64,000 nt of DNA from Synechococcus sp. SynAce01 (lineage in GTDB: Bacteria > Cyanobacteriota > Cyanobacteriia > PCC-6307 > Cyanobiaceae), in assembly GCF_001885215.1 (NCBI RefSeq), contig NZ_CP018091.1:2108001-2172000 (forward strand), read 5' to 3'. The notes under the pieces were generated by a model that ran no database searches, was not told where the DNA came from, and saw only the letters and a program-made list of their open reading frames with translations. Numbering within the stretch: the stretch's first letter is position 1; each line of letters opens with the position of its first letter. This document shows, piece by piece, positions 4,636-13,298 of this stretch. A program made the position numbers and the translations under genes.

Positions 4636-4640
4636 CACTG

Positions 4641-4704
4641 CCTCAGCGGTATTGGACTGAATGGAGAGTGCAGCGAAAGAACTCGCCTTCGCTGTCGAAG
4701 GCGG
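4641..4704 (-). pseudogene. leftover 3' end of a DUF6544-like gene (copy of 7711-7774)
   Basis: These 64 bases match 7711-7774 at all but one position. At 7711 the same sequence encodes the last residues of the DUF6544-like protein, ending in LHSVQYR and TGA. Here the copy keeps the reading frame (one Glu to Asp change) and the stop codon, but the sequence upstream of it no longer aligns, so only the C-terminal tail of a related gene survives. It sits directly in front of the membrane-protein gene at 4635. Confidence 0.75.
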
Positions 4705-7657: not shown

Positions 7658-7710
7658 AAGCGCACTCCTATCCCAGGCGTACCCATGTTCGCCCCATAGG
7701 AGTGACGCTT
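7658..7710 (-). terminator. bulged hairpin directly after the DUF6544-like gene
   Basis: Minus-strand arms AAGCGTCACTCCTAT (7710-7696) and ATAGGAGTGCGCTT (7671-7658) pair over 14 bp with a single unpaired T and a 24-nt loop. The hairpin begins 2 nt after the stop codon at 7713. It could be a terminator. The one-base bulge in the upstream arm resembles the attC-like elements further along, but the outer RYYYAAC/GTTRRRY boxes are missing, so it may also be a worn cassette end. Confidence 0.5.
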
Positions 7711-7774
7711 CCTCAGCGGTATTGGACTGAATGGAGAGTGCAGCGAAAGAACTCGCCTTCGCTTTCGAAGGCGG
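7711..7774 (-). repeat. 64-bp direct repeat, second copy (3' end of the DUF6544-like gene)
   Basis: Matches 4641-4704 at 63 of 64 positions. Here it is the intact 3' end of the gene at 7713-8489; the other copy is an isolated fragment about 3 kb away. Confidence 0.9.
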
Positions 7775-8489: not shown

Positions 8490-8496
8490 TTAGTAC

Positions 8497-8583
8497 GGCT
8501 GACGCTCCAGATCAGAAGCGGGCAAGTGCTTTTGCTGATGAGGATCAGGCCCTAATCCCGCCTTCTGGATCTGGATGTTAGCC
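8497..8583 (-). repeat. attC-like recombination site A
   Basis: This is an 87-bp palindromic element. On the minus strand it starts with R'' GGCTAAC, then an arm containing AGATCCAGAAGGCGGG, a variable centre, the complementary arm CCCGCTTCTGATCT, and the R' box GTCAGCC. One extra C in the first arm leaves an unpaired base, the usual asymmetry of attC sites. It begins 3 nt after the stop of the ORF at 8587 and ends 7 nt before the start of the ORF at 8489. R' departs from GTTRRRY by one base. Confidence 0.75.
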
Positions 8584-8586
8584 AGC

Positions 8587-9701: not shown

Positions 9702-9761
9702 GGGTCTTCAGTGTGCAATAGATAGGATGCCTCGGTGGGCGGGTGTTGGTTAAGCCTGTGC

Positions 9762-9848
9762 GGATAACGCTCAAGATCAGCGGCGGGGAGGATTCTTGCA
9801 GCTTTAACAGCCTTCAGCGCTCCCGCCCGCTGGATCTTGATGTTAGAT
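9762..9848 (-). repeat. attC-like recombination site B
   Basis: This is an 87-bp element. On the minus strand it reads R'' ATCTAAC, then ATCAAGATCCAGCGG, a centre that includes GGGAG, then the complementary CTCCCCGCCGCTGATCTT and R' GTTATCC. The outer arms match element 12194-12279 exactly for 22 nt on one side and 19 nt on the other, while the centres differ. One extra C in the first arm gives the unpaired base typical of attC. It lies 64 nt after the small ORF at 9913 and 60 nt before the secreted-protein ORF. Confidence 0.82.
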
Positions 9849-9912
9849 GCCGAAACTTGAGCAATGGCACTAACCAAATCTGACGAAGACGTTAAAGTCA
9901 TCCCATGCCAGC

Positions 9913-10544: not shown

Positions 10545-11993
10545 CTATTTTGTATCCACTCTAATGCCATCCTTATCCCAGTTTTCAAATGCCCCTAGAT
10601 AAGGGGGATTGTGGCACCAGTCCATAACGTCACGCCTGCCATTTTGAATATAGGTGCCAGCTTCCTCATTCATTTTTTTTGTAATTTCTCTAGCCTTGTG
10701 CGACTCCTCGATCTTAAATCTTGCCAAAAGGGCAGCATCGTGGGCTGTTCTTTTGGCTTTTTTAATTTTTTCTTCGAGGTTGGCTGTTGAGCACCAATTG
10801 GCTAGATAGGCATCTTTATCTCTGGAATACAATAAGTAAATGGTGTATTTGTCTGGTCTTTCTAATGACTGTGCAGGCCTATGAGTATCTTCTTGAAACT
10901 TATTTTCTACTTTTTCGGGAGCAGTAAAGTAGGGCTTGCCAGATGGTCTAACCTTGATCCATTCATGAATTCCAGCGTATCTCCCCGTAATTCCATGGTA
11001 CTTGTAATTCTTATATTTCTCAAAAACTTCTTGCTCTTTGTCAAATGCTTTTTGTCTTGACGTAAATACTGCGGTTCCCACAAGTTTAACATCAGGAACA
11101 CTCTCTCTAATTGCCTTGATCCTATCTCCGAGTTTTTCAGGCTCTCTTACTCCAACCTTGTACGCACTGTGCTGGTCGGAATACAGTAGGTAAAGCACAT
11201 GGCCGCTTGGCCCACATCCTGTCAGGCGCTGATACATCCCTGGCCCATCAAGCTCAGCTATTCCCGTATTGAATGTTGGGTGTCTCGATGTATTGCTACG
11301 CCTGGTAGTGTTACCACCCTTCAAGTTCGGGATAGGCAAGACCGGGTCAGCTCCATTCCACGCTTGTTTTTCAGGGGAAGGAATTGGGTTGCTGGACTCG
11401 GCAAGGGGCTGGGCAGCAATGGGGACCGCTGGGACGGCCATGGTTGCCGGATTGGCCTCCTCCAGAACAAGCTGGCGGGGGCTCCCCAGGGTCGTGGCCA
11501 CCGCCTTCTCCAGCAGGGGAAGACGGCTCTGCACCATCGCCATCCAGGTGGTCGCCACCCGCACCACGGCCCGTTGACCATCCAGCCGCACCAGCTCGGC
11601 CTGCTGGGAGAGCAACATGCGTGCTGAAGGCAGCTCCAGGGCCGCCAGCATCTGTTGCCAGAGCTCGCTCAGCGGGATCTCACCCTTCGCCAGAGAAGTG
11701 GTTGAAAGGGTCGGGACTGGCAGGTGTTCCTGCTCGACCTGTGTCACCGGTGCCGCTGTCACAGATGCAACTGGTGCAGGTGTTGGACAAGGGCTAGGTA
11801 CAGGTGTTGGCCTAGATGCATGTGCAGGTATTGACCTTTGTGCAGGATTGAATACTTCTTTGGCTAATGTACTTCGATTAACTTTGTCTGCGATCTCTTT
11901 CGCCACTGGGGCGTGTGATCTTTGTGACCGCGACAATTTTCGAAGCAAATAATATATGACTACAGCAATTAGAATACTCAGCAGTAATTCCAT
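10545..11993 (-). CDS. chimeric membrane-anchored protein: DnaX-like segment plus GIY-YIG (T5orf172-type) domains
   Basis: The 482-residue protein has an N-terminal membrane helix (2-18), then a Pro/Thr-rich linker (about 55-100). Residues 105-180 resemble the C-terminal region of cyanobacterial DNA polymerase III tau (DnaX), including LELPSARMLLSQQAELVRL and WMAMVQSRLPLLEKAV. A second linker leads to a GIY-YIG domain of T5orf172/MUG113 type at 264-348 (VLYLLYSDQHSAYKVGV, later RYAGIHEWIKV). A second, weaker repeat of the same fold starts at 383 (YTIYLLYSRDKDAYLANW). The DnaX-like part is GC-rich like the host genome, while the rest is AT-rich, so the gene looks assembled. A possible attC site follows the stop by 3 nt. 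Confidence 0.75.
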   Translation of the reverse strand: MELLLSILIAVVIYYLLRKLSRSQRSHAPVAKEIADKVNRSTLAKEVFNPAQRSIPAHASRPTPVPSPCPTPAPVASVTAAPVTQVEQEHLPVPTLSTTSLAKGEIPLSELWQQMLAALELPSARMLLSQQAELVRLDGQRAVVRVATTWMAMVQSRLPLLEKAVATTLGSPRQLVLEEANPATMAVPAVPIAAQPLAESSNPIPSPEKQAWNGADPVLPIPNLKGGNTTRRSNTSRHPTFNTGIAELDGPGMYQRLTGCGPSGHVLYLLYSDQHSAYKVGVREPEKLGDRIKAIRESVPDVKLVGTAVFTSRQKAFDKEQEVFEKYKNYKYHGITGRYAGIHEWIKVRPSGKPYFTAPEKVENKFQEDTHRPAQSLERPDKYTIYLLYSRDKDAYLANWCSTANLEEKIKKAKRTAHDAALLARFKIEESHKAREITKKMNEEAGTYIQNGRRDVMDWCHNPPYLGAFENWDKDGIRVDTK

Positions 11994-12193: not shown

Positions 12194-12279
12194 ATCTAAC
12201 GCTCAAGATCAGCGGGGGGTAGTGACTTTTGCGGCATCAGCTCCTCCTAGCCCCCCTCCGCTGGATCTTGATGTTAGAT
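12194..12279 (-). repeat. attC-like recombination site C (best example)
   Basis: This is an 86-bp element whose outer boxes fit the consensus exactly: minus-strand R'' ATCTAAC and R' GTTAGAT. The inner arms AAGATCCAGCGG and CCGCTGATCTT pair with one unpaired C, and the stem continues through a G6/C6 stretch to a variable centre. Its outer arms are identical to those of site B. It begins 11 nt after the stop of the JAB-domain ORF (12291). About 200 nt without a gene separate it from the start of the next ORF at 11993. Confidence 0.85.
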
Positions 12280-12290
12280 GTCCCTCTGCG

Positions 12291-13088
12291 TTATAACTCT
12301 AGAGAAAGTTGACCAGACGGATGGGCTTCGCATTCGTTTGAAGCATCAAATTCATGACTCATCCAATATTTGCCATTCGCTGCATACTCAAGTAGCTTCC
12401 ACTCTTGATGAGGATTCCAGAAGATTATCAGGCTTTTGAGTTTGTTTGACTGAGCCCCAAGAAGGTTCTGAATCATTCCTGAAGTTCTTATGTCTGTCAA
12501 TGATGGTTTAGTAGACCCATTATGAACTGGATGATTGTGATATTGACGGAGCTCGGTGCATCTTAGCTTGCTCAAGTAAAAACTCCATTTCTTAGGATTA
12601 TCGGATGCAGAGCATTTATACGGCGAGCCAATCGAGGCCGTTATCCTGACTGCAATTCCATTACGCATGAATGCGGCAACAAATACTTCCCGTTTTTCGT
12701 GAAACATTCCGACTGCAAGCGCTTCTTCAAGATCTTTCTGACTTCGGCCTTGCAAGGAATATGCTTTCTTAAACGTCTCGCCCTTTTCCCTTGCGTCATA
12801 TTTTTGAAAAACATGGTCAATATTTCTCCGAAGACGAGAAATCTCGCTACATATCTTAGATCTCTTTTTATTTCGTTTTTGCTGAGGCTCCCAAGCATTG
12901 TTAAATATCCAACTAATTGCAGGCGCTAGCAACATACAGGCAACCAAGTAGATAGCCCAGCTCATTACTTGGCTCAATACAAATAGTAGCAGGCAAAAAT
13001 AGACAAGCGCAAACAGCCTGAAACTGGCACTAGAGGATCCTCGATCTATCTCCTCTAATTCAAGGTGTAAGGTTTCTAGCCTTGTCAC
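12291..13088 (-). CDS. membrane-anchored JAB/JAMM-motif protein
   Basis: The 265-residue protein starts at a GTG preceded by AAGGAG at 4-nt spacing. Two hydrophobic helices (about 24-42 and 44-63) form a hairpin anchor, followed by a basic, coiled-coil-like segment (70-125). The C-terminal domain has REVFVAAF (E134), then YHNHP (H184, H186) and PSLTD (S196, D199). This is the E...HxH...SxxD metal site of JAB/MPN+ isopeptidases, with a slightly longer gap than usual between the His pair and Ser. Such domains cleave ubiquitin-like conjugates in some bacterial defence systems. No E1, E2 or ubiquitin-like partner lies nearby. Cassette gene between sites D and C. Confidence 0.72.
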   Translation of the reverse strand: MTRLETLHLELEEIDRGSSSASFRLFALVYFCLLLFVLSQVMSWAIYLVACMLLAPAISWIFNNAWEPQQKRNKKRSKICSEISRLRRNIDHVFQKYDAREKGETFKKAYSLQGRSQKDLEEALAVGMFHEKREVFVAAFMRNGIAVRITASIGSPYKCSASDNPKKWSFYLSKLRCTELRQYHNHPVHNGSTKPSLTDIRTSGMIQNLLGAQSNKLKSLIIFWNPHQEWKLLEYAANGKYWMSHEFDASNECEAHPSGQLSLEL

Positions 13089-13165
13089 CCTGCTCCTTAA
13101 CTTCGGAAACGCTAGCAGTGGAACGGTCTGCCCCTATCCCTGCTTAAACTTGTTTCTGTTGGTGC

Positions 13166-13251
13166 ATCTAATGACGGAGCTGAGCCGCACCGCCGTTCTA
13201 CCGAACGACGTTCGGCTAGCAGACGGTGTCGGCTCCAGCGAAGTGTTGCTT
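13166..13251 (-). repeat. attC-like recombination site D (diverged)
   Basis: This is an 86-bp element. On the minus strand the arms GCTGGAGCCGACACCG and CGGTGCGGCTCAGC pair with extra bases on the first side only. R' is ATTAGAT (expected GTTAGAT), followed by GCACC like the sequence after site C. R'' (AAGCAAC) is imperfect. The centre holds a perfect 7-bp palindrome CCGAACG-A-CGTTCGG. It lies 47 nt after the end of the broken ORF and 77 nt before the JAB gene. Confidence 0.6.
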
Positions 13252-13298
13252 ATGCCGCGCAAGTATTCTACGCACTTAGAACAACCGTAGAAACGCGG

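Follow-up and report, generated by a model that had tools for sequence, protein, structure and literature searches.

What does a JAMM protease cut without ubiquitin? The question is raised by a small protein family, one member of which is encoded in a 64,000-nucleotide stretch of the genome of Synechococcus sp. SynAce01 that was analysed here as a whole (the window). Prokaryotic JAB genes with E1 and ubiquitin-like partners have long been described, as set out in excerpts of PMC1779556, and an isopeptidase role is given for Cap3 in the available portion of PMC10097602. A preliminary description of the window had proposed a cassette gene for a 265-residue protein in which a two-helix membrane anchor and a coiled coil are joined to a JAMM motif, in a place devoid of E1, E2 or ubiquitin-like (Ubl) partner genes. 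The open reading frame was found exactly as described, with a GTG start (Table 1), and this start point was common to the window protein and all five complete relatives from other bacteria.

Table 1 Features of the JAMM cassette and of related sites in the window; residue numbers refer to the 265-residue protein
Feature	Position	Strand	Basis or remark
CDS, membrane-anchored JAMM/MPN protein, 265 aa	12291..13088	(-)	GTG start, TAA stop
Shine-Dalgarno-like AAGGAG, 4 nt before GTG	13093..13098	(-)	inference from sequence reading
Hydrophobic helical hairpin anchor, residues 22-64, then K/R-rich stretch	12897..13025	(-)	AlphaFold helices, hydropathy
Long charged helix, residues 67-96 (putative coiled coil)	12801..12890	(-)	AlphaFold model
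Family signature GxxFKKAYxLxG, residues 103-114	12747..12782	(-)	invariant in 7/7 members
MPN (JAMM) domain, residues 115-250	12339..12746	(-)	predicted structure
E134, predicted general acid-base glutamate	12687..12689	(-)	alignment
H184-N185-H186, predicted zinc ligands	12531..12539	(-)	alignment
S196-x-x-D199, predicted oxyanion serine and zinc ligand	12492..12503	(-)	alignment
attC of the JAMM cassette	12194..12279	(-)	de novo inverted-repeat scan
ATTAGATGCAC, probable upstream cassette junction	13162..13172	(-)	sequence reading and hairpin fold
Related attC, neighbouring cassette	9758..9849	(-)	80 % identical to the JAMM-cassette attC; fold z -2.34
Related attC, neighbouring cassette	8493..8584	(-)	fold z -3.83

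The N-terminal part of the full-length AlphaFold model consisted of helices at residues 3-39 and 44-65, followed by the helix 67-96. The first two bear out the two-helix anchor, and hydropathy supported an anchor in 6/6 full-length family members. Two separate hydrophobic segments exceeded the threshold in only three of the six; the window protein and its relative L025 had one merged stretch, L021 the second segment only. An excess of lysine and arginine followed the second hydrophobic segment in all six, which by the positive-inside rule would place this stretch on the cytosolic side. The coiled coil is putative, a label derived from the long helix 67-96 of the model.

Profile searches directed the assignment of the C-terminal part to RadC at scores below the curated cut-offs: the Pfam RadC profile matched the window protein with E 0.031 (14.7 bits, cut-off 22.1) and the NCBIfam RadC profile with E 0.0046 (score 16.6, cut-off 180). 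RadC was matched by six of the seven family members and Prok-JAB by one, all matches of the window protein remaining below cut-off. The family profile retrieved only noise from the PDB sequences (E >= 0.56). Compared with 74 phage RadC domains (left from 80 loci, 76 of them with a usable domain, once near-duplicates had been removed), it reached a probability of 96.7 %, an E-value of 4.6e-10 and a score of 60.9; two protein searches for further phage RadC yielded one self-match and no match, respectively. As both profile sets had been fetched by motif, shuffle controls were run. With the motif kept and the other columns shuffled, 0/100 shuffles reached 60.9 (maximum 43.9). Masking of the motif left a score of 27.0 in an unchanged register, again reached by none of 100 shuffles (maximum 16.2). 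The RadC profile match is beyond chance.

The predicted structures agreed with this assignment. The full-length model, computed from the family alignment alone, had a mean pLDDT of 68.6 and a weak C-terminal half (pLDDT in the 50s). In its alpha/beta domain, strand three (179-185) enters the HxH and helix 197-216 starts at the SxxD, and the top Foldseek match in the PDB was RadC 2qlc (E 2.7e-3, probability 0.99). The top VIA matches of this model, Smc5/6 and TRPML, were set aside as long-helix matches to the anchor; RadC had a Z of 4.1 there. A domain model computed with RadC rows had a pLDDT of 86.5 and a pTM of 0.82. Foldseek ranked RadC (E 7.4e-6) before BubCD (7.2e-4) and PfJAMM1 (1.1e-3), and VIA, in which rows within 1 Z count as tied, listed RadC 2qlc (Z 11.1, rmsd 3.6, 114 aligned), PfJAMM1 5lda (10.6), Caldiarchaeum Rpn11 6fnn (10.3) and BubCD 9ea4 (10.0), then BRCC36 and AMSH. 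The domain model leans to the RadC fold because it was built with 45 RadC-like rows; the full-length model was free of them. The catalytic domain is, in these predictions, an MPN fold as proposed in the preliminary description and not another fold, with RadC as the nearest structure.

The proposed JAMM motif was recovered throughout the family: E134, H184, H186, S196 and D199 were invariant in 7/7 members, as were N185, P187, P195, E121, E131, C159, C177, W224 and N225, among others. In an alignment of the seven with 45 RadC-like rows (44 of the 74 phage RadC domains and the phage protein of L012), E134, H184, H186 and D199 were common to all 52 rows and S196 to 51, the RadC-like rows presenting S in 44 cases and T in one. 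The motif spacing, HxH-x9-SxxD, is two residues longer than the canonical x7. For the canonical motif, excerpts of PMC300881 describe two histidines and an aspartate that hold zinc, a glutamate as acid-base and a stabilising serine. From their alignment with known JAMM sites, E134, H184, H186 and D199 are predicted to cluster as a metal site. Judged by its sequence, the window protein falls outside canonical RadC. The RadC-like rows had D (45/45) and H (43/45) following the SxxD helix; the family had S in 7/7 (S219), then L or F, and an invariant W-N. RadC has an N-terminal helix-hairpin-helix region; no Pfam match to such a region was obtained for the window protein, whose N-terminus is the hydrophobic hairpin. 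A canonical RadC was not detected at E <= 1 in the window's genome, which is 99.85 % complete, and a RadC above cut-off was also present in 6/6 other genomes with a family member (partial in G731). Synechococcus elongatus, among the controls for the RadC search, has a RadC match.

Relatives were sought in 84,980 species genomes with the motif pattern [YF]HNHP-x7-P[S/T]xxD. Six of the 15 loci obtained proved to be genuine relatives (blastp E 3e-39 to 2e-82 against the window protein, 30-57 % identity); the other nine, with E no better than 0.006, were rejected. The relatives belong to Deltaproteobacteria (L025), Pseudomonadota (L019), Gammaproteobacteria (L020), Spiribacter (L021), Ectothiorhodospiraceae (L022, cut by a contig end) and Hydrogenedentes (L031). 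All five full-length relatives shared a layout of VS-x-Y-[ED] start, hydrophobic hairpin, charged helix, GxxFKKAYxLxG and catalytic domain. The window protein as query found nothing usable in viral contigs, phages and PDB sequences, and two chance matches (E 3) in plasmids; tblastn with the L025 relative gave no match in plasmids or phages. In the window's own order, 3/399 genomes matched at E <= 0.01, one being the window's own; L002 and L003 from this order were rejected as short matches with stop codons over the anchor. The only match among 386 genomes of the phylum was the window's genome itself. Profile searches added no genome in the class of G729 (1/369 matched), the window's own family (1/251), the order of G727 (2/196), the order of G731 (1/41) or viral contigs (0), and the gene occurred in none of the 250 further genomes examined from the window's family. 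The number of known members of the protein family is a minimum since the scan required [YF]HNHP and an exact spacing and missed divergent relatives. The rare, scattered occurrence among unrelated bacteria suggests a horizontal spread. The sister copies L019 and L020 gave a dN/dS (NG86) of 0.043/0.575 in the JAB part and of 0.216/0.734 in the anchor, indicating strong purifying selection on the catalytic part, while the anchor mainly keeps its hydrophobicity. Neither a membrane-anchored RadC-like JAMM protein nor a JAB integron cassette was found in the open-access literature, and this bacterial family has apparently not been described before.

The gene was correctly read as a cassette gene. 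Its attC lies directly 3' in the right orientation and folds as a single strand with -21.9 kcal/mol (z -5.42; 0/200 shuffles as good), and an integron integrase and the same attC type are present in the genome. The upstream junction is degenerate, reading ATTAGATGC at 13172 with A where GTTRRRY has G, and adjoins a hairpin at 13164-13256 (z -2.48; 3/200 shuffles as good). The GC content of the gene is 0.421, that of the window 0.656. The integrase is encoded at C1:183055-183924 (338 aa in the open frame, above the family cut-off) on the one contig of 2.75 Mb that makes up the genome, with further partial integron-integrase matches elsewhere. Sites like the JAMM-cassette attC were located near the integrase (C1:175097-175179, 177405-177486 and 167056), others near the integrase fragments. 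A DRT4-type defence reverse transcriptase (L014 5482-7071 (-), equal to C1:173482-175071; PADLOC E 2.5e-190) starts directly behind one of the sites near the integrase, so at least one cassette of this integron is probably anti-phage. Several other elements were observed in the genome. In the window, the neighbouring cassette at 10545-11993 (-) encodes a 482-aa protein with an N-terminal hydrophobic helix, a match of residues 26-198 to DNA polymerase III gamma/tau (NF011510, E 9.7e-21) and a part resembling GIY-YIG (E 1.7e-4 to the endonuclease phrog_681); by these matches it seems to be a piece of a clamp-loader gene captured in a cassette. A 67-nt direct repeat (97 % identical) occupies window positions 4638-4704 and 7708-7774, one copy lying at the 3' end of the DUF6920/DUF6544 gene and the other, 3 kb away, resembling a duplicated gene end. 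Two near-identical pairs of Y2 (IS91-like) transposase and tyrosine recombinase adjoin the integron integrase (L014 10210-14697).

Gene neighbours were surveyed in flanks of 4-20 kb, the contigs of G728 and G730 having about 4 kb; nine neighbours were compared with Pfam, the rest were judged by eye, and names like recQ or comM were assigned by eye from translations. For all seven copies, the flanking genes included no recognised E1, E2 or Ubl partner, in accordance with the preliminary description. The relative of G727 lies between the isocitrate dehydrogenase gene and recQ, with the same order in its sister G728. In G729, a histidine phosphatase and a methyltransferase are encoded nearby, and in G730 the copy lies at contig ends. 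The G732 copy follows an Eco29kI restriction-modification pair that reads the same way. In G731, the gene is preceded by comM and followed by the gene of a 155-aa protein, and a Panacea antitoxin-like ORF is located some 3 kb upstream. No neighbour recurred except in the sister pair. The ORF for the 155-aa protein (L042 10653-11120 (+)) starts 9 nt after the JAMM relative and encodes one likely membrane helix as judged by eye; it had no Pfam match and is a possible partner in G731 only. A 5'-nucleotidase (PF06189; PADLOC PDC-S08) is encoded near integron-like sites in the window's genome (L017 3706-4728 (-)), and a similar ORF occurs 5 kb from the JAMM relative of G729 (L043 15893-16900 (+)), probably a coincidence. 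As to homologues in cassette arrays or defence islands, the restriction-modification pair of G732 and the Panacea antitoxin-like ORF of G731 were the only recognisable defence neighbours in other genomes, and a scan around the relatives (L041-L047) detected no attC, a weak negative as the same scan missed the two degenerate sites of the window. A special link to ubiquitin-like anti-phage operons was not borne out, RadC and not Cap3 or BilC being nearest by sequence and fold; for the window protein, PADLOC gave nothing at E <= 1. BilD had been named as a JAB protein for comparison, but in BilABCD the JAB/JAMM protein is BilC, and BilD is the E1, according to excerpts of PMC11354881.

We regard it as rather probable that the gene encodes a stand-alone, membrane-tethered JAMM/MPN+ zinc peptidase with a RadC-like catalytic domain, borne as an integron cassette. 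The hairpin would be embedded in the inner membrane, its two ends cytosolic, and the helix 67-96 would space or oligomerise the enzyme, the MPN domain facing the cytosol. H184, H186 and D199 would hold the zinc, E134 activate water and S196 stabilise the intermediate. The enzyme may hydrolyse a protein coming near the membrane at a peptide or isopeptide bond, a cleavage that would proceed without a dedicated E1/E2/Ubl system. The selected benefit, by analogy to other mobile single genes, can be guessed to be protection from phages or from other stress. A part in phage defence would be plausible in view of the DRT4 cassette in the same integron, the restriction-modification pair beside one relative and the patchy spread. 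The common icd-recQ position in G727 and G728 counts against a purely defence role and fits a housekeeping-type role as well. We give little credence to the bolder idea of a single-gene, membrane-anchored JAMM protease that provides its own phage defence at the inner membrane, free of any ubiquitin-like system, on a cassette traded between phyla; if it were true, a phage or host protein would be cut at the inner membrane.

Other readings of the gene start from the same observations. The near tie in fold between RadC and the Ubl-processing enzymes PfJAMM1 and Rpn11, with BubCD close behind, would suit a deconjugase that removes a ubiquitin-like modifier supplied by a phage or by a system encoded at another locus of the host, much as Cap3 and BilC serve the systems they belong to; we consider this unlikely, the copies having no recognised E1, E2 or Ubl neighbours, the sequences being nearer to RadC than to Prok-JAB and the window protein being without a PADLOC match. 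The proximity to RadC in sequence and fold and the lack of a RadC in the window's genome could equally be taken for a membrane-anchored paralogue that performs RadC's role near DNA, e.g., at membrane-bound sites of DNA uptake or replication. This is just as doubtful: RadC's conserved D and H after the SxxD helix are replaced by S and L/F in all seven members, the scores stay below the curated cut-offs, and the six other genomes have a RadC beside the family member. Finally, the cassette copy may be a passive passenger that was captured, is perhaps silent and has no role in the host. Cassette genes away from a promoter are often silent, and the deviating GC content and the absence from the other genomes examined of the host's family agree with this reading, but the reading frame with its start, the ribosome site and all catalytic residues are intact, and we hold it to be very unlikely.

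In the present picture, bacterial JAMM enzymes mostly have E1, E2 or ubiquitin-like partners or, as RadC, no known activity. With its intact metal site, its anchor and no recognised partner, the small family offers a compact protein for testing the activity of the RadC branch. To our knowledge, RadC itself has no established enzymatic function. Pyrococcus JAMM1 and Caldiarchaeum Rpn11 (5lda, 6fnn; VIA Z 10.3-10.6) have the same MPN+ fold with the JAMM residues; they were solved in complex with SAMP2 or ubiquitin, whereas no such partner was found for the window protein. The JAB part of Citrobacter BubCD (9ea4, Z 10.0), CBASS Cap3 and BilC are bacterial JAB/JAMM domains as well, but are encoded with E1/E2 (and Ubl) genes, none of which was recognised next to the gene of the window protein, itself unmatched in PADLOC. 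We know of no membrane anchor in the BubCD JAB part, Cap3 or BilC. RadC (PF04002, NF000642; 2qlc of Chlorobium tepidum) has in common with the window protein the MPN fold, the E...HNHP...PSxxD site and the order of strands and helices. The window protein differs from RadC by the membrane anchor in place of the N-terminal RadC region, by the HxH-x9-S loop instead of x7, by S219 for the invariant Asp, by its own invariant W224-N225 and FKKAY, and by scores below the curated cut-offs. A RadC-like MPN domain in a new architecture is likewise described for the RadC-like DinG in the available text of PMC11981726; there the domain belongs to a helicase fusion, while in the window protein it is fused to a membrane hairpin.
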